From the NCBI GenBank assembly GCA_000018565.1, contig CP000875.1, forward strand, positions 3,487,199 to 3,551,198: DNA of 64,000 nt, read 5' to 3'. Below, piece by piece: positions 7,058 through 49,708 of the stretch (its first letter is position 1; every line of letters starts with the position of its first letter). The notes under the pieces were generated by a model that was given only the letters and a program-made list of their open reading frames with translations, searched no databases and had not been told where the DNA came from. Source of the DNA: Herpetosiphon aurantiacus DSM 785 (GTDB lineage Bacteria > Chloroflexota > Chloroflexia > Chloroflexales > Herpetosiphonaceae). Made by a program: the position numbers and the translations under genes.

Positions 7058-7732
7058 ATGGCCGATCCAACCAAGCCACCCTATCACGATCAGCAGTCAC
7101 CAACCGCCTACGCCATTCCAGGCTATGTAGTTCCAACAGCATTTGATCCTTCAATTAATCAGCCTAATCGTTGGATTAACTGGATGATGATCAATATTCT
7201 CAGTTTTATCGTGGCAATCGTTACGTTTGCTGTTTTAGTATTTATCGCTATTACAACCATAGGCAAGCTGAGCGATCTCTTAATGTCCTTATTACTTAAT
7301 CTCAACACCCTTCGCATTCAAATTCTTGGATTATTAATCTTGGGATTGATCGCGGCGATAACGGGCGCAGTATCGGCACTGACCCAACGATCAGCGCTCA
7401 ACTATCAAGTTCCACGTTGGCCATGGGTGATCAAAACTGCGTTAGCAGTTGGAATGCTCTTTCCAGTTAGCACAGTCTTAAGTAACCTCGTCGGAGATAC
7501 TTTTTTTCTCCGCGATACATCATGGCAACGATATATCACTACAATGCTTGTAAACTTCGGGCCAACCGCTTTTGGCACAGCCTTAATCCAAGCATTCGAA
7601 GTCAAAAAAGTTGCCAATAACCCAATCGAATGGGTGTGGGTAAGAGGCTTCACTTGGACAATCCTAGGAAGCTTGGTTGTGGGAAGTATTATTAGTTTTG
7701 TTATGGGGGTAATTGGCAGTATTAGTGTGTAA
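7058..7732 (+). CDS. Array membrane protein 3
   Basis: This 224-residue paralogue has a short, polar N-tail (about 40 residues) and four hydrophobic helices. It keeps NRWINWMMIN before helix 1, LTQRSALNYQVPRWPWVIKT in the central loop, and EVKKVANNPIEWVWVRGFTWT before the final helix. The ATG at 7058 was chosen because AGGAGC precedes it in the same context as paralogue 2. Function unknown. Confidence 0.75.
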   Translation: MADPTKPPYHDQQSPTAYAIPGYVVPTAFDPSINQPNRWINWMMINILSFIVAIVTFAVLVFIAITTIGKLSDLLMSLLLNLNTLRIQILGLLILGLIAAITGAVSALTQRSALNYQVPRWPWVIKTALAVGMLFPVSTVLSNLVGDTFFLRDTSWQRYITTMLVNFGPTAFGTALIQAFEVKKVANNPIEWVWVRGFTWTILGSLVVGSIISFVMGVIGSISV

Positions 7733-7737
7733 AAGTA

Positions 7738-7775
7738 AAGGTTGCCTCAACTGCAAACCAAGCTGAGGCAACCTT
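7738..7775 (+). terminator. Stem-loop between array genes 3 and 4
   Basis: AAGGTTGCCTCA pairs perfectly with TGAGGCAACCTT (12 bp, 14-base loop). It follows the stop codon of gene 3 and lies 25 bases before the start of gene 4. It lacks a U-run, so it may be a leaky terminator, an mRNA stabiliser or a leader hairpin like the others in the array. Confidence 0.6.
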
Positions 7776-7800
7776 AAACGATTGAGAAGAGGAAAAATCT

Positions 7801-8424
7801 ATGCCCGATTCACCCGATCCACTGATTAACCAACCAGCAACCTCCAATTCCGCGCAAGGCTATCGCATTCAAGCAACGATCATGGCCAACCATAACCAGC
7901 CAAGCCGTTGGGTCGATTGGGTGATTATGAATGGTGTAGCTTTTGTTATTAGTTGCATCGTTTTTCCAATTCTATTGGTTGGATGTTTATTGATCTTTGC
8001 AGGATTCACAGAGTCAGCCTCAGCAACCCAAGCTCAAATTTCAGATGGTTTTGGCCTGCTATTCGTCGTTGGAATTCCAGCATTTGTAACGATGTATCTT
8101 GCAAGTTTTCTACAATGGACTACGGTCAGCGAAGGAATTAATCGTTCGACATGGGTCACCAATAGCGCAACGGTTGGGGCAATTACATTGACTGTATGGA
8201 TCTATCACCTAAGCCCAATCACTGCTCAATCGATTAAAAACTACAATCAAGTTATCATTCTGACCTTTGGAATCACCTCAAGTAGTATTAGCTGGGCACA
8301 ATGGCTTGAACTACGCAAAACAATCGATCAGGCATGGCAGTGGGCATTGATTAGCATCATCACGTGGACAGGCCTTGGAACATTAATTTTTGGTTTTGGC
8401 CTTAGCTATTTGGTACGACGCTAG
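7801..8424 (+). CDS. Array membrane protein 4
   Basis: This 207-residue paralogue has a short polar tail and four hydrophobic helices. It keeps SRWVDWVIMNG before helix 1 and WAQWLELRKTIDQAWQWALISIITWTGLG near the C-terminus. The central loop motif is the least conserved of the set. GAGAAGAGG precedes the ATG. The next gene begins 15 bases after its stop, so the two are probably co-transcribed. Function unknown. Confidence 0.72.
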   Translation: MPDSPDPLINQPATSNSAQGYRIQATIMANHNQPSRWVDWVIMNGVAFVISCIVFPILLVGCLLIFAGFTESASATQAQISDGFGLLFVVGIPAFVTMYLASFLQWTTVSEGINRSTWVTNSATVGAITLTVWIYHLSPITAQSIKNYNQVIILTFGITSSSISWAQWLELRKTIDQAWQWALISIITWTGLGTLIFGFGLSYLVRR

Positions 8425-8439
8425 CCCAAGGAGTAGCCG

Positions 8440-9150
8440 ATGAGTGAAGAACCAAACCAAGCAGATCAACCTCAGCCGCCGTCTGCCAATTATGGCTATC
8501 AGCCGTATGATCAGCAGCAAACTTACCCAAGTTACAACTCCCAACCAAGCTATAGCGTGCCAGCAACGACTGATAACAATACCAATGCTCCCAATCGTTG
8601 GCGGCGCTGGGTTGGCTACAACGCTTTAGCATTTGGCCTAAGTTGTGTCATTATGCCCTTGGGCTGTTGCGTCATGTCGGTCGTCGCCAATGTGCTGCGC
8701 AGCGGTTTGCAGGAATTGGTCGATAATCCCAACTTTAATCTTGCTGGGGCAATTGGGGTTTTCGTGCTACTCAGTTTTCCGCTCTTTCTGACCATCGGCG
8801 TTGCCAGCATGATTCAACGAGCAGCCTTGTACCACCAAATGCCCACCAAATTATGGGTTTTCGGCAGTGCCCTCAGTGGCATCGCTGCAATGTTTGTGGC
8901 AATAATGTTGATGGGAATGATCGCAGCGCTATTTAATCTCGACTTCACGCCAAATGCCTATATTTTGAGCATCGTTGGCATCTTTGCTGGTACATCAACT
9001 GGCATTGGCTTTTTTCAATGGTGGCAAATTCGGCGGGTTGTAATTAATGCTTGGCACTGGCCGCTGATCTCCGGCGCAACGTGGACTGGCCTTGGCACGC
9101 TGATTCTTGGCGTAGGGATGAGCTATCTCTACAACCGCTTAGGCATTTAG
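8440..9150 (+). CDS. Array membrane protein 5
   Basis: This 236-residue paralogue has an N-tail of about 50 residues rich in Q, P, Y and S. Four helices follow, with NRWRRWVGYNALAFG at the start of helix 1, MIQRAALYHQMPTKLWVFGS in the loop and TWTGLGTLILG near the end. AAGGAG precedes the ATG. Its stop codon overlaps the convergent GAF-STAS gene by four bases. Function unknown. Confidence 0.75.
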   Translation: MSEEPNQADQPQPPSANYGYQPYDQQQTYPSYNSQPSYSVPATTDNNTNAPNRWRRWVGYNALAFGLSCVIMPLGCCVMSVVANVLRSGLQELVDNPNFNLAGAIGVFVLLSFPLFLTIGVASMIQRAALYHQMPTKLWVFGSALSGIAAMFVAIMLMGMIAALFNLDFTPNAYILSIVGIFAGTSTGIGFFQWWQIRRVVINAWHWPLISGATWTGLGTLILGVGMSYLYNRLGI

Positions 9151-43888: not shown

Positions 43889-44281
43889 GCCTATGAATCA
43901 ATGTCAACTATGCTTTAATTCATAGGCGGCTAAACCGAGATAATTCTCTATGCAATCACTGATTAACTCTGTATGCTCAATCGCAGAAGGTCGCCATATG
44001 CTCTAGTTTGTGGGAGAGTCGTGAGAACATACAGCAGGGTTGGTATATGGGGTATACCAATCCTGTTGGTATTTCCAAGCATCCTCGGCTAACCCAAAGC
44101 CTTTAGCCATCTCTCGCCCTCTGCGCCTCTGCGTTAAAAACGAACCTTATGGAGCGTTCAACTGATCCTTCATCCTTCATCCTTTCATAACTCCTGACAT
44201 CACTTAGTAATCTCGCTGGGTAGTATTTTGCAGCTTGGCAGGCTAGGCTAACAGCAGTTTTTGTATGCAGGAGTTTGGTCT
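43889..44281. other. Intergenic region with inverted repeat and genomic repeat words
   Basis: No gene is supported here. GGTTGGTATA-TGGGG-TATACCAATCC (44037-44061) is an inverted repeat that may be an operator. CTCTGCGCCTCTGCGTTAA (44117-44136) is a word also found near 58238-58255. Confidence 0.5.
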
Positions 44282-45997
44282 ATGGCCCGCCATTCACTCA
44301 GCCCTAATCGATCATTGCAACGTGCTTGGCGTTTTGATCGTGGATTACCTAAGCCATTGTTATTGCTGTTATTGCTTGATTTATGTCTGCTTTTGCCAGT
44401 GCCATGGCTCTTGCCAAGCGTGTTTGATCCACAGCCACATAGCCAACCTAGCACAAACCTAGCAATCGAAGTTCCAAGCGCAACTGCAATACCCCAAGGT
44501 GCAGGCATTGGCAGCGCAGCCGAACAACGCCAATTGCCATTGTTAATTGATCCAGTGCGGTTGCAAGATGCTCGCTATGGTGATGCCCAAACTATTGCTA
44601 GGTTGCTGGCTAAATATTGGCCCAGCTTGGCTAAGCAAACCTTTGATGTGGGCAATGGCATCCAACAAGATGCTGCCAATATCATCACTGGCCAAGCCTT
44701 GCGCTGGAATATTAATCCACTCATTTTAGTGAGTTTGTTGGCAATTAATTACGATGTTGCCAATTCGCCACGGTTTGAACAGGCGTTTGGCGGCCCTGAA
44801 ATGGGCTTTCCCCAACAAGTACTCTGGGCAACAATCGAGCTGCGCGAAGGCTTAGACCAACCAATCACCAACACATTTCAACTCCAGCATGGCGGTTGGT
44901 GGTCAACTGAACAACCATTAGATCGAGCGAATGCCAGTTTGTTGCGAGTATTGGCGCAAACCCGTAATCAAACTGAGCTTGAGCAATTGTTGGGTGCTGG
45001 TAACCAGTCATGGGTCGCGCAGGTAACCCCAATTATGGGTGATCCGCGTCAGCCAATCTACAATCCAGTCATCGATCAGCCGTTTATGGTCACGCCGTTT
45101 AATGCTGCCAATCATCCAATTGCCCAATTCGATCATCAGTATCCTTTAATTAACGCCGATGGCACGATGCTTGGCAATGGCTTGAGTTTCGAGTTAGGCT
45201 ACGATGGGCATAATGGCTGGGATTACGCTCTACCTGCCGATAGTCCGATTTTGGCTGTGGCAGCAGGCACAGTGCTATTTGCAGGCTGGGTTGATAGTGG
45301 TTGCGCTACACCAGCAGGCGTGGTAGTGGTTCAACATCTCAATGGTTATCGCAGCGCATATTGGCATTTGGGGCGGGTTGATGTTCAAGCAGGTCAGCAG
45401 GTGGCTCAATCGGAGTTACTGGGGCTGATTGGCCAAACTGGTTGTAGCGTTAATGATCATCTTCATTTGAGCATTCAGCGCTTAGGTCGCGATGTTAACC
45501 CTGCTGGCTGGTGTAGCACCTTGCCCGATCCATGGGCTGCCCATCCAGCCGGAGCCAGCAGCCGTTGGCTATGGCTCGATCAGGTCGATAGTTGCAACCA
45601 GCCAGCCATGAGCAGTTTGGCCGATGATAGCGATCCAGCCACGACCACGCGCTATGGCAGTGGCTGGCAAATAGATTCAGCAGGCAATTTCAATGGCTCA
45701 CACTGGACAAGCACTGGTGGTCAAACCCTCTGGCGGCCATGGATCGCCCAAGCGGGTCGTTATCGTGTAATGGTCTTTATTCCCAATGTGGCGACCAAGG
45801 CTGGCACGGCCCATTATCGGATTGCCCATAGCGATGGCATGAGCGAAATAGTGATCGAGCAGGCCAAGCATGCTGGCAGTTGGCTCAGTTTGGGCGATTT
45901 TTGGTTTGATCCAGGCCAAATTGGCCGCATTGGGCTTAGCGCCATACCAGGCACGTTAACATGGGCCGATGCAATTGCCGTTCAATCGTTAAATTAA
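44282..45997 (+). CDS. M23-type peptidase with C-terminal golvesin-like domain
   Basis: The 571-residue protein has a membrane anchor or signal (about 22-45), then a helical region (about 85-250), then an LytM/M23 domain (about 295-415): ELGYDGHNGWDYALPADSPI with the H and D zinc ligands, and DHLHLSI with the HxH ligand. A C-terminal beta domain (about 440-571) resembles the golvesin/xanthan-lyase carbohydrate-binding type. It should cut peptide bridges in the cell wall. AGGAG precedes the ATG. Confidence 0.88.
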   Translation: MARHSLSPNRSLQRAWRFDRGLPKPLLLLLLLDLCLLLPVPWLLPSVFDPQPHSQPSTNLAIEVPSATAIPQGAGIGSAAEQRQLPLLIDPVRLQDARYGDAQTIARLLAKYWPSLAKQTFDVGNGIQQDAANIITGQALRWNINPLILVSLLAINYDVANSPRFEQAFGGPEMGFPQQVLWATIELREGLDQPITNTFQLQHGGWWSTEQPLDRANASLLRVLAQTRNQTELEQLLGAGNQSWVAQVTPIMGDPRQPIYNPVIDQPFMVTPFNAANHPIAQFDHQYPLINADGTMLGNGLSFELGYDGHNGWDYALPADSPILAVAAGTVLFAGWVDSGCATPAGVVVVQHLNGYRSAYWHLGRVDVQAGQQVAQSELLGLIGQTGCSVNDHLHLSIQRLGRDVNPAGWCSTLPDPWAAHPAGASSRWLWLDQVDSCNQPAMSSLADDSDPATTTRYGSGWQIDSAGNFNGSHWTSTGGQTLWRPWIAQAGRYRVMVFIPNVATKAGTAHYRIAHSDGMSEIVIEQAKHAGSWLSLGDFWFDPGQIGRIGLSAIPGTLTWADAIAVQSLN

Positions 45998-47082
45998 GCC
46001 AGTGCTTTGGCGAGATCCGCTAAAAATGCCTCGGCAGCAGCATCACTGATCAAACGAGTATCATAACTGAGGGTGGCGATCGCTTGTTGGCTAATTTGCA
46101 ATGCCTCGCCAACCAACACTTTGCGGGTAGCCCCAATATGCAACGTCGCCGATTGACCATAGTTGATCGGCGCAGCACTCCACAAATTCACCGCACTTTG
46201 AATGAAGCTAAACACCCCAGCTTGCTCAGTGGCTGGGCTGGTTAATGCCCGTTGCAAGCCACGCAAATTCAAATCGGCGGCGAATGGAATGCTACAGCGA
46301 CCCAAAGGATGTTCAACCTGAATATGCAAACTAGCCCGTTCCAAACGATCACCAGCAGACCAAACACTGCGTAATAGTGGATGGCGTTGCAAGACCTGAA
46401 TTGTGGCGAGCAATAAATGCGCGGTTAATTCGGTTGAAGCAAACCGATCGAGGCTGATGGCGTGCGAACAATAGGCTTGGGGAATGCTGGCTGCGGCAAG
46501 TTGGCGCAGCTGAATCTGCTGGAGTTGGGCCTCAGTCCACGGCTGAAGCGTGCTTGCTTGTGGCGGCGTTGTTTGGCTGATTGGCGGGTTTTTGGGAGCA
46601 GCAACAACAATTACTTGCTCAGATTGGGCAAAAGCATTGCCCATCTGTTCGGCGACACAAAACCCATCGGCAGGAGCGGCAAGTTGCTCGGTTGGCTCAG
46701 CTAACGTTGGGGAGACATCGGGCAAATGCGCCAGAATATCGCGTTTGCCCACCCGCCCATCGGCGAGCGTACCACTGATTGTGCTTAAATCGAGTTGATG
46801 GCGCTCGGCAATGCAACGAGCCAGTGGGGTGACAGTAAGTTGGCGTTTTGACACCATTTCAACAAATTGTAATAATGGAGTAGTCACATCGAGGGTGGCT
46901 CCCTCATCAACTAATAATGCCGCAACCGTTCCAGTTTGCTGTGCTGGAAGCGCCCATTCAGCGTGTGCATCAACAACCAACGCTACAAGCTGGCCTGCTG
47001 CTACCTCAGCACCAGGTTGAATCAACCAACGGTATAATCGGGCGGTTGATTGAAACGTTGGCAGAGCCACTGACGATGCCAT
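45994..47082 (-). CDS. Degenerate dihydrolipoamide acyltransferase (E2)-like protein
   Basis: The 362-residue protein has the E2 layout: a lipoyl-like domain (about 1-75), an intact peripheral-subunit-binding domain (VTPLARCIAERHQLDLSTIS then GTLADGRVGKRDIL, about 83-118), a linker, and a catalytic-type domain (about 180-362). Key residues are missing. The lipoyl lysine of the usual DKA turn is replaced (VVDAHAEW), and the active-site DHRxxDG reads DTRLISD. It can hardly act as an acyltransferase and may bind E1/E3 or have a structural role. AAGGAG precedes the ATG at 47082. No E1 or E3 gene is adjacent. Confidence 0.82.
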   Translation of the reverse strand: MASSVALPTFQSTARLYRWLIQPGAEVAAGQLVALVVDAHAEWALPAQQTGTVAALLVDEGATLDVTTPLLQFVEMVSKRQLTVTPLARCIAERHQLDLSTISGTLADGRVGKRDILAHLPDVSPTLAEPTEQLAAPADGFCVAEQMGNAFAQSEQVIVVAAPKNPPISQTTPPQASTLQPWTEAQLQQIQLRQLAAASIPQAYCSHAISLDRFASTELTAHLLLATIQVLQRHPLLRSVWSAGDRLERASLHIQVEHPLGRCSIPFAADLNLRGLQRALTSPATEQAGVFSFIQSAVNLWSAAPINYGQSATLHIGATRKVLVGEALQISQQAIATLSYDTRLISDAAAEAFLADLAKALA

Positions 47083-47275
47083 GAACACTCCTTTGTGATC
47101 TACATGAATGACAGTTGAGCAGCACATTAGCAGGAGCAAGCACCATCGACAAGGGGTGACTCCACGCTGAGACGTAAGCTATTGTACCATGGGGATGAAT
47201 GGTCAAAAAACGGTGCCAATTCAACCGTAACAAATTGACCCTTCAGACGGTATACATTGAAAGGGGACGCTCGTT

Positions 47276-47824
47276 TTGTTCGAGTCTCTCAGCGATCAAG
47301 AAATTATCGAACGCGCCAAAGCGTATGATCATGCAGTGCTGCAATTTCTTTACGAATCATATTCGCCTGCGTTGTTTCGTTATATTTACTATCGCATCGG
47401 CGACCGCGAGACAGCCGAAGATATTCGCGCCGATGTGTTCATAAAAATGCTCGAGGGCTTGGCTTCATTCAATTATCAAGGGTGGAGCATCGCCTCATGG
47501 CTGTATCGGATTGCCCATGATCGGGTAGTTGATCATTTACGTCGTCAAGGGCGGCGCAAACAAGAAACCCTTGTGGAAAGTGTTGTTGATCCTGCCGACG
47601 GGCCAGATCAACAATCGTTAGAATCGTTGGATCATGCTGAACTCTATGCGGCATTGCAGCAACTCACCGATGAGCAAGCTGAAGTGATCATACTGCGATT
47701 TCTGCAAGATCGGAGTATACGTGATGTTGCGCAAATCACTGGTCGTAGCGAAGGTGCTATCAAAGCATTACAGCATCGGGCACTTAACGCGCTGGGTCGA
47801 TTACTTCGACCAGTGGGGGACTAA
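47276..47824 (+). CDS. ECF-type RNA polymerase sigma factor
   Basis: The 182-residue protein has sigma region 2 (YESYSPALFRYIYYRIGDRE then TAEDIRADVFIKMLEGL, and SWLYRIAHDRVVDHLRR) and region 4 (LTDEQAEVIILRFLQDRSIR then DVAQITGRSEGAIKALQHRA). A TTG start at 47276 is used because AAAGGGG lies upstream and there is no other start before region 2. Its stop overlaps the next gene (TAATG), which encodes a membrane protein that probably acts as its anti-sigma factor. Confidence 0.9.
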   Translation: MFESLSDQEIIERAKAYDHAVLQFLYESYSPALFRYIYYRIGDRETAEDIRADVFIKMLEGLASFNYQGWSIASWLYRIAHDRVVDHLRRQGRRKQETLVESVVDPADGPDQQSLESLDHAELYAALQQLTDEQAEVIILRFLQDRSIRDVAQITGRSEGAIKALQHRALNALGRLLRPVGD

Positions 47825-49110
47825 TGAACGATAATTTGAGCCACATGATTATTGATGCATGGCAAAACGGGGCCAGCCTCGAAACACTCTGCCAGCAGTA
47901 TCCTCACCACGCTGAGGCTATCCAACAATTAATTAATCCATTAATTCAGTTACAACGGGTCAATCCACCAACTATGCCAGCACGAGCAAGCCATGCACAA
48001 GCTGATTTTATGCGTTTAGCGCAACACTATCGCGCTCAAACTGCCCCAAAGCCTAAACCACGACGGCGCTTATTAACTCAACGCTGGGTTTGGGCCACAG
48101 CGACAATCCTGCTCTTGGTTTGTTTGAGTGGCAATTTGGTCTTATCGGCCTCGGCTAGCGCCTTGCCAGGCGATAGTTTGTATGGGATCAAACGTTGGAG
48201 CGAATCGATCAGCTTGGTGTTTACGCCCAGCGCTGAACAATTAACTGCACGGATCGATCTGGTCAACGAACGCCAGCATGAGATCGCTAGCTTGGTAGCA
48301 TTAAATAAACCAGTGCCAAGCGAATTGCTTGATGAAGTCGTCAACGAAACTCAGTCAATTGAGTTGGCGCTTGCGCCGACCCATACGAATGACCCACGAC
48401 GGAGCAAATTGAGCCAAGTCAATCAGCAACTGCAAACGACAATTGCAATTATTCCAGTGGAAAATGCGACTGACAATCTCAAACATCATGATCTGATTGA
48501 GACGCTTGATCAAAGCCGTCAGCGCATCGATATTGCCAATCTGACGACTATTCCGACCCAACCAGCGAAGGTTTTGGTTGGTCCAACAGCAACCAAGCAG
48601 CCAAGTATCGCGCCAGCGGCAACTGATCTGCCACATATTGCAAACCCAAAGCTCCCGCCAAAGCCACATACACCAACGCAGGAGCCAACCGAAGTCGTTT
48701 TACCAACCTCAACGAGCACACCATGGCCAACCGCGAAACCAACGCGGGTGCCGCCGCCTGTGATCAAACCAACTGCCACTGCGACTTCGCTACCCACATC
48801 AGCCCCAACCGATGTGCCAATGCCCACATCAGCCCCAACCGATGTGCCAATGCCCACATCAGCCCCAACCGATGTGCCAGTGCCCACCGAAATTCCGAGC
48901 ATCGGGTTACCAACCGCCACGCCAACGATTGTGCGTGAGCAACCAACTGCGCCTGTCCCAACCAAAGATCCTGGCGATATTAAGCCAACCGAAGTTCCAC
49001 CAACTTCACCACCAACTTCACCACCACCAACGAAGGAGCCACCGCCGCCTTCACCAACGAAAGAGCCAGAGGATACCAAAGGTCAGCCAAACCCCATTCT
49101 CCAATATTAA
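47824..49110 (+). CDS. DUF5667-like putative anti-sigma protein with P/T-rich extracellular tail
   Basis: The 428-residue protein has a cytosolic start (about 1-75), one membrane helix (about 84-103) and a DUF5667-like segment directly after it (PGDSLYGIKRWSESISLVF, then helices to about 225). A long P/T-rich tail ends it (about 240-428), including three copies of PTSAPTDVPM. This arrangement next to an ECF sigma gene suggests an anti-sigma factor that senses the outside. The start is coupled to the sigma stop codon. No zinc-binding anti-sigma motif is visible. Confidence 0.82.
   Translation: MNDNLSHMIIDAWQNGASLETLCQQYPHHAEAIQQLINPLIQLQRVNPPTMPARASHAQADFMRLAQHYRAQTAPKPKPRRRLLTQRWVWATATILLLVCLSGNLVLSASASALPGDSLYGIKRWSESISLVFTPSAEQLTARIDLVNERQHEIASLVALNKPVPSELLDEVVNETQSIELALAPTHTNDPRRSKLSQVNQQLQTTIAIIPVENATDNLKHHDLIETLDQSRQRIDIANLTTIPTQPAKVLVGPTATKQPSIAPAATDLPHIANPKLPPKPHTPTQEPTEVVLPTSTSTPWPTAKPTRVPPPVIKPTATATSLPTSAPTDVPMPTSAPTDVPMPTSAPTDVPVPTEIPSIGLPTATPTIVREQPTAPVPTKDPGDIKPTEVPPTSPPTSPPPTKEPPPPSPTKEPEDTKGQPNPILQY
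48793..48882 (+). repeat. 30-bp tandem repeat, three copies
   Basis: CCCACATCAGCCCCAACCGA plus TGTGCCAATG recurs at 48793, 48823 and 48853; the third copy has one A-to-G change. It encodes PTSAPTDVPM and could vary in number by slippage. Confidence 0.9.
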
Positions 49111-49145
49111 GGCTTTGATCTATGAGTCAGCAATCAACCCCACAA

Positions 49146-49192
49146 GATTGCTGACTCCTGACTCCTGACTCCTCCTGACTCCTGACTCCAAA
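49146..49192 (+). repeat. TGACTCC short tandem repeat
   Basis: TGACTCC occurs five times here, mostly in 7-base phase with one CTCC slip, just after the anti-sigma gene. Confidence 0.75.
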
Positions 49193-49306
49193 TTCTGTCC
49201 GTTTGGACAGGTCTAAGCCTGTCCGATTGTGCTGCACCTAGCCCCACTGCTGGCTGAGTTATTAGCAAACGCTAATAGCTATACTGCTAGGCAGATGGAG
49301 GTAGCT

Positions 49307-49708
49307 ATGAACAACGACGATTTTCGAGGCTGGTGTAGTAGCCTCGCCACAGTTTGGAATCAACATATGTTGGCTGTTTTGCCCACATTATTCAGCCCAG
49401 CCATTCGTTATCAAGAGCATCCCTTCGAGCCGGCCTTGCATGGCGTGGCGGCGGTTATGAGCTATTGGCGCACAACCTTGGCCCAACATGAGCAAGTCGA
49501 ATGTGTGATCACACCAGTCATCTTTGCCGATGGATGTGGAGTTGCCGAATGGCGCACCAAGCTCTATCACCACAATCAACAGCAAGCCCAAACTTTAGCC
49601 GGAATTTTTATTGTGAATTTTGATGCCCATGGCCAAGCTAGCGAACTTCGCGAATGGTGGTTGGCGCAGGCAGTCGAGGAGCAACAGATATGCAACGCAT
49701 TGGATTAA
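49307..49708 (+). CDS. NTF2/SnoaL-like small protein
   Basis: The 133-residue protein has the cone-shaped alpha+beta pattern of SnoaL/NTF2-like proteins: a helix around WNQHMLAVLPTLFSPAIRYQ, a strand GVAEWRTKLYHH, and a closing strand AGIFIVNFDAHGQASELREW. GGAGG lies eight bases before the ATG at 49307. The SDR gene overlaps its end by 19 bases. Activity cannot be predicted. Confidence 0.75.
   Translation: MNNDDFRGWCSSLATVWNQHMLAVLPTLFSPAIRYQEHPFEPALHGVAAVMSYWRTTLAQHEQVECVITPVIFADGCGVAEWRTKLYHHNQQQAQTLAGIFIVNFDAHGQASELREWWLAQAVEEQQICNALD

Follow-up and report, generated by a model that had tools for sequence, protein, structure and literature searches.

Does an E2-like gene that has lost both its lipoyl lysine and its catalytic histidine motif represent a decaying copy, or is it kept for something else? 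This question is raised by a gene of Herpetosiphon aurantiacus DSM 785 (contig CP000875.1), located in the stretch of 64,000 nucleotides that we analyzed and call the window. Here, we refer to its product as the pseudo-E2.

The gene, its domains, and the E2s of the same genome

The coding sequence occupies 45994..47082 on the minus strand (362 aa plus stop). Its ATG lies at 47082, a start over which the orthologs also align, and a Shine-Dalgarno sequence, AAAGGAG (47088..47094, minus strand), is found 5 nt 5' of the ATG and is identical in five aligned Herpetosiphon sequences. An Rfam search of 44000-49500 found no RNA element near the gene. The Pfam domains Biotin_lipoyl, E3_binding, and 2-oxoacid_dh all scored above their cut-offs in the pseudo-E2; its scores against the NCBIfam E2 models were far below theirs.

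Read along the minus strand, residues 1-74 (46861..47082) form a lysine-free lipoyl-like domain (PF00364, 33.4 bits, residues 16-72), in which the hairpin VVDAHAEW (residues 36-43; 46954..46977) takes the place of the DKx lipoylation turn, with K replaced by H at residue 40. The peripheral subunit-binding domain (PSBD) follows at residues 83-118 (46729..46836; PF02817, 27.7 bits, residues 85-117), and the linker motif APADGFCVAEQMGNAFAQSEQVIVVAAP (residues 135-162; 46597..46680) lies between it and the C-terminal domain. The latter (residues 184-362; 45997..46533) was assigned the E2 catalytic-domain fold, shortened and devoid of active-site groups, on the basis of Pfam (PF00198, 30.0 bits, matching only the C-terminal part at residues 303-361) and an AF2 model; it comprises ~180 aa, compared with 208-255 aa in most of the matched solved E2 core chains. 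SYDTRLISD stands at residues 339-347, where E2s have DHRxxDG, and within it YDTRLISD (46042..46065) replaces [FY]DHRxxDG, with H changed to T and G to D. A preliminary description of this DNA had read VVDAHAEW instead of a DKA-type turn and DTRLISD instead of DHRxxDG, and had called the PSBD intact; the translation bears out both motifs, and the PSBD exceeds the PF02817 cut-off. The statement that the E2 architecture is kept stands for the three domains in outline and fails for the length of the C-terminal domain.

We compared the pseudo-E2 with the E2s of the same genome (6.79 Mb, 3 contigs), a check proposed in that description. The genome encodes three PSBD proteins: two canonical E2s and the orphan pseudo-E2. 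The PDH-type E2 (L016, 468 aa) carries ETDKV and SADHRATDG, and the BCKD-type E2 (L017, 439 aa) carries TTDKVD and TFDHRLIDG, the type names having been assigned from the sequences in this analysis; both keep the DK turn and DHRxxDG, whereas the pseudo-E2 has neither. Each canonical E2 gene is preceded by E1alpha and E1beta genes, and both E1alpha-E1beta-E2 operons contain Pfam E1_dh, a transketolase-type E1beta, and all three E2 domains. One clear E3 (L131) passes the lipoamide dehydrogenase cut-off. The next candidate (L132) scored 363.8 bits, below the cut-off of 408.8, and was read as probably another disulphide oxidoreductase rather than a second E3. Given two E1-E2 operons and one E3 elsewhere, the orphan pseudo-E2 gene is extra.

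Distribution, shared losses, and selection

Profile searches covered the class (158 genomes), a sample of the phylum (400), and the order (82), and the fetched matches were read by motif. Pseudo-E2s with the same losses were found in at least 36 of the 82 order genomes and in all four families sampled (f1-f4, of which f2 presumably includes Chloroflexus); this count is a lower bound, and some of the other genomes are incomplete. In the window's own family, f1, the gene was present in 7 of 9 genomes, and both misses were 75-76% complete. A scan of contigs from close relatives matched only three Herpetosiphon records, as expected of that method. Outside the order, matches in the 400-genome sample reached at most 263 bits among those listed, and the seven phylum matches that were read (L083, L084, L085, and L088-L091) were all canonical, with no pseudo-E2 among them. 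Restriction of the pseudo-E2 to the order is not proven, the profile search having been confined to Chloroflexota.

The loci in the motif reading formed two classes, one with DHRxxDG and a DKx turn and the other with YDxR and neither of these; a single canonical locus, the split gene L106, had no DKx turn, and one further L106 fragment fitted neither class. For this sorting, ten loci were passed over as near-duplicates and rows sharing identical ends were taken out; the two G027 fragments (L106) were omitted from the residue counts and from the domain identity comparison. The lysine at the lipoyl position was present in all 37 canonical E2s (a set in which some Herpetosiphon E2s are near-identical and a G008 gene is counted twice) and in none of the 30 pseudo-E2s with an intact lipoyl-like domain. 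At the active site, the histidine (37/37 canonical vs. 0/36 pseudo; A in 28, T in 5) and the glycine of the motif (37/37 vs. 0/36) followed the same division, and Y340, D341, and R343 occurred in 36/36 pseudo-E2s and were also invariant in a 27-row alignment; these five counts are partly by construction, as rows were sorted on the active-site motif, whereas the lysine was not used. The preliminary description took retention of the lysine and DHRxxDG in orthologs as the mark of a copy that is just decaying. Both are missing from all seven f1 sequences, which were collected by similarity alone before the motif reading, as well as from the other members found later. The lysine and histidine counts indicate that the losses are not due to chance or sequencing error, and the loss of catalysis and lipoylation in the pseudo-E2 is well supported at the sequence level.

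Among the 30 intact lipoyl-like domains, residue 42 was E in 29, followed by W or V in 26, a pair that forms a new signature at the tip of the hairpin. No lysine at all was found in 25 of these domains, and the remaining five have one or two each. Residual lipoylation via a nearby lysine was considered separately and is unlikely: the visible lysines in those five domains lie away from the hairpin and none is at the lipoyl position, with one of the five placed outside the stretch examined. The six members outside the intact set are G029, G032, G033, G034, G035, and G038. The lipoyl-like domain was absent from every frame of the stretches searched in G033, G034, and G035, which belong to one genus and keep the PSBD and core, and it was also absent from the 3 kb searched in G032; the G038 pseudo-E2 starts at a contig end, and the lipoyl-like part of G029 is in another frame.

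A quick maximum-likelihood tree of 67 rows split 36 pseudo-E2s from 31 canonical E2s at one branch with a support of 100; this tree is unrooted, has long branches flagged, and leaves out the two G027 fragments (L106), L122, L123, L124, L126, L088, and L108. Given the one-branch split, a single origin of the pseudo-E2 family is likely, and is rated no higher because of the long branches and the unfixed root position. In the PDB, the family profile matched a PDH E2 best (275.6 bits), with human protein X lower, at 125.4 bits. In one member (L060, genome G024; ORF 7317-8609), the PSBD-linker part seems partly duplicated, as two overlapping profile matches fall in one ORF, read on L086 from the same genome.

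Whole-gene dN/dS of the pseudo-E2 within Herpetosiphon was 0.08-0.18, and the BCKD-type E2 in these strains gave 0.03-0.09; ratios of distant pairs, whose dS is near or above 1, are rough. Within the genus and against the window sequence, the values by part were 0 to 0.11 for the PSBD, 0.08-0.09 for the core domain, 0 to 0.05 for the linker motif, and 0.09-0.23 for the whole linker. The lipoyl-like domain had higher ratios than the other parts (0.24-1.4), on unusually low dS. Whole-gene selection on the pseudo-E2, as estimated from these alignments, is purifying, which together with the conserved neighborhoods described below argues that the gene is not a decaying copy. Family-wide losses, purifying selection, and conserved neighborhoods agree with the earlier proposal of an inactive E2-architecture protein retained in one of three roles: decoy, scaffold, or binding protein. 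Decay of one copy was likewise considered and is ruled out by orthologs, dN/dS, and synteny; the higher dN/dS in the lipoyl-like domain was the sole sign in its favor.

Two further observations concern the 5' part of the gene. Its first ~75 codons (46861-47082) showed a dS of 0.02-0.04 in the two nearest strains, compared with 0.30-0.45 in the core domain, perhaps because they overlap with regulatory DNA of the divergent sigma factor gene. An extended -10 promoter-like site (46848-46876, plus strand) lies inside the pseudo-E2 gene, antisense to it and pointing at that sigma gene. It has 11/12 matches, a 17-nt spacer, and hexamers identical in five aligned Herpetosiphon sequences, and is at about the chance expectation for the stretch searched (mean 1.2).

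Binding domain, core, and gene neighborhood

The PSBD is well conserved: P86, A88, A92, and D115 were found in 36/36 members, R89 in 32/36, and R110 in 30/36 (lost in 6). It was nearer to the PDH-type than to the BCKD-type E2 of the genome in 36/36 members (mean identity, 53% vs. 32%), a comparison that covers 36 residues and a single pair of reference E2s. The core domain was nearer to the BCKD-type E2 in 26/36 (PDH type in 9, 1 tie), and the lipoyl-like domain was evenly split (13 PDH type, 14 BCKD type, 3 ties; n = 30). Since the core leans to the BCKD type, simple descent from a PDH E2 does not account for the PDH-like PSBD, and a common set of partners may lie behind the resemblance. The one clear E3 is presumably bound by both canonical PSBD types, so the PDH E1 may be indicated no less than E3. 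Overall, the sequence of the PSBD weakly suggests the PDH complex.

The AF2 model had a mean pLDDT of 73 and a pTM of 0.49, with low confidence at residues 123-179. Its core matched the PDB with a best Z of 21.8 to 6zzn (182 residues, 4.3 Å), 1c4t aligned over 175 residues at 2.5 Å, and human E3BP (6h60) gave a Z of 19.8. The E2 core fold is thus present in the predicted structure, a match that is expected of homologs and uninformative on activity. The core fold is also that of chloramphenicol acetyltransferase (6x7q, Z 14.9), from which the pseudo-E2 differs in lacking the catalytic His and carrying a PSBD.

In the linker, FCVAEQMG and QVI are invariant in 7/7 sequences of the window's family, and the motif contains a Cys. 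The peptide of residues 135-162 occurs once in the genome, which rules out a repeated genomic module. Two f3 members show, by eye, a Cys-Phe motif at a similar place in the linker. The excerpted text of PMC10156792 describes conservation suggestive of a binding role in the Neurospora E3BP linker as well.

We read the neighborhoods at six f1 loci and, for the 29 members in the other families, at 20 loci (L044-L063). In 14 of the 20 loci, the next gene downstream, on the same strand, encodes phosphofructokinase, with gaps below ~330 nt (in L052, this gene is split into two frames). EtfA was directly upstream in 6/20, all in f3 or f4. RecG was upstream in 12/20, exclusively in f2 loci; in L058, an ORF separates it from the pseudo-E2. 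In 6/6 f1 loci, a sigma factor gene and a DUF5667-type gene are divergent from the pseudo-E2; in the window, these are a sigma-70 family (ECF-like) gene (47276..47824, plus strand) and, 3' of it, a DUF5667 protein gene (47824..49110, plus strand). When the genome's own E1, E2, and E3 proteins were used as BLAST queries, the 26 loci and the 64-kb window gave matches to the pseudo-E2 alone. As to gene order, f2 genomes tend to have a cluster of genes in one direction, encoding a DegV/FakB-like protein, RecG, the pseudo-E2, phosphofructokinase, and a START-like protein, and f3 and one f4 genome have the order ECH, acyl-CoA dehydrogenase, EtfB, EtfA, pseudo-E2, phosphofructokinase. The DUF5667 protein carries a Pro/Thr-rich tail; with the ECF-like sigma gene, its gene spans 47276-49110 (plus strand).

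A possible adaptor subunit and its alternatives

As read from the sequences, the pseudo-E2 is a lineage-specific E2 paralog with a retained function that is neither acyl transfer nor swinging-arm chemistry. Our best explanation, to which we give about an even chance, is that it is a paralog of the E2 of 2-oxoacid dehydrogenase complexes, catalytically dead and non-lipoylated, which has been retained as a subunit for binding or scaffolding. Its PSBD would grip E3 and/or an E1, like the PSBDs of the genome's own E2s, and its shortened core domain would self-trimerize or dock on an active E2 core. The complex would then gain binding sites for peripheral enzymes with no swinging arms or active sites added, and the pseudo-E2 would tune the E1 or E3 load, in the manner of eukaryotic E3BP (protein X). 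Docking is a guess, as identity between the core of the window protein and those of the genome's two E2s is just 24-25%, and the nearness of most cores to the BCKD type counts against a simple PDH origin. The absence of E1, E3, or E2 neighbors, the occurrence in at least 36 of 82 genomes only, the six losses of R110, and the weaker constraint on the lipoyl-like domain also count against the adaptor.

Conversely, those neighborhoods could mean that the protein was repurposed outside 2-oxoacid dehydrogenase complexes, as a CAT/E2-fold trimer with another partner; candidates would be phosphofructokinase, ETF/acyl-CoA dehydrogenase, and, in Herpetosiphon, a product controlled by the divergent sigma factor. 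This would fit the lack of E1, E3, and other E2 genes in the 26 loci as well as the recurrence of EtfA, phosphofructokinase, and the divergent sigma gene, but the neighbors differ by family (RecG/DegV, ETF, sigma), as expected if they were inherited by descent, and the PSBD is well conserved, with E1 and E3 binding as its known use. We consider this explanation unlikely. Ranking after it, and improbable in our view, is a decoy or competitive regulator whose PSBD, with the lipoyl-like domain, sequesters E3 or E1 off the complex and lowers PDH/BCKDH flux without joining the E2 core. The same PSBD conservation and the conserved motif in place of the lipoyl turn would suit such a role, and the phosphofructokinase gene directly downstream could mean control of glycolytic flux; however, a PSBD alone would suffice for a decoy, yet the core-like domain is present in 36/36 members and conserved within the genus. 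In addition, at least three genomes of one genus lose the lipoyl-like domain and keep the PSBD, which mildly favors an adaptor or scaffold over a lipoyl-domain decoy. A degenerate E2 active by other means, or a decaying pseudogene, is very improbable: the frame break in G029, the divergence faster than that of the BCKD-type E2, and the still higher ratios in the lipoyl-like domain are in line with it, but such a break was seen in no member other than G029 (the G038 sequence starts at a contig end), the gene as a whole is under purifying selection, none of the 27 aligned rows departs from Y-D-x-R, the losses are family-wide with one tree split, and no lipoyl lysine or general-base His is left.

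For the adaptor reading, eukaryotic E3BP (PDHX, protein X) is the nearest known system. According to the excerpts of PMC10156792, it is an E2-derived paralog with a lipoyl-type domain, a PSBD, and an inactive E2-fold core, features that the pseudo-E2, inactive as judged by its residues, appears to share. E3BP works beside an active E2, and the genome with the pseudo-E2 also encodes canonical E2s. Unlike E3BP, the pseudo-E2 is bacterial and has no lipoyl lysine, whereas mammalian E3BP includes a lipoyl domain (excerpts of PMC6270654). Compared with canonical bacterial E2s of the PDH or BCKD type, it has the same domain order and folds, with a PSBD resembling the PDH type and a core slightly closer to the BCKD type, but lacks the lipoyl lysine and DHRxxDG, has a shortened core, and is accompanied by no E1 or E3 in the loci searched. 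In the excerpts of PMC10156792, E3BP is presented as a gene of eukaryotes through which E1 and E3 are recruited separately, and E1 and E3 are said to share the PSBDs of bacteria; why E3BP is catalytically inactive is described there as unknown, and the criterion given for fungal E3BP is an M3-like motif. The retained PSBD and degenerate core correspond to the pattern used for recognizing E3BP in those excerpts, and on this analogy we propose that the pseudo-E2 may be an E3BP-like adaptor, without classing it as an E3BP. That Chloroflexales evolved an E3BP of their own, independently of eukaryotes, in the form of a dedicated E2 paralog with neither swinging arm nor active site, which docks on a PDH or BCKDH core and sets its E3 (or E1) load, is possible, although we lean against it.

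Among the titles and abstract beginnings that the literature search returned, no description of a bacterial non-catalytic E2 of this kind was found, and the pseudo-E2 is apparently bacterial in origin. If the proposed role is true, it would provide an independent, tractable bacterial case of E2 neofunctionalization as in E3BP. Moreover, annotating such Chloroflexota genes as dihydrolipoamide acyltransferases would lead metabolic reconstructions astray for the central pathways of Herpetosiphon and related bacteria.
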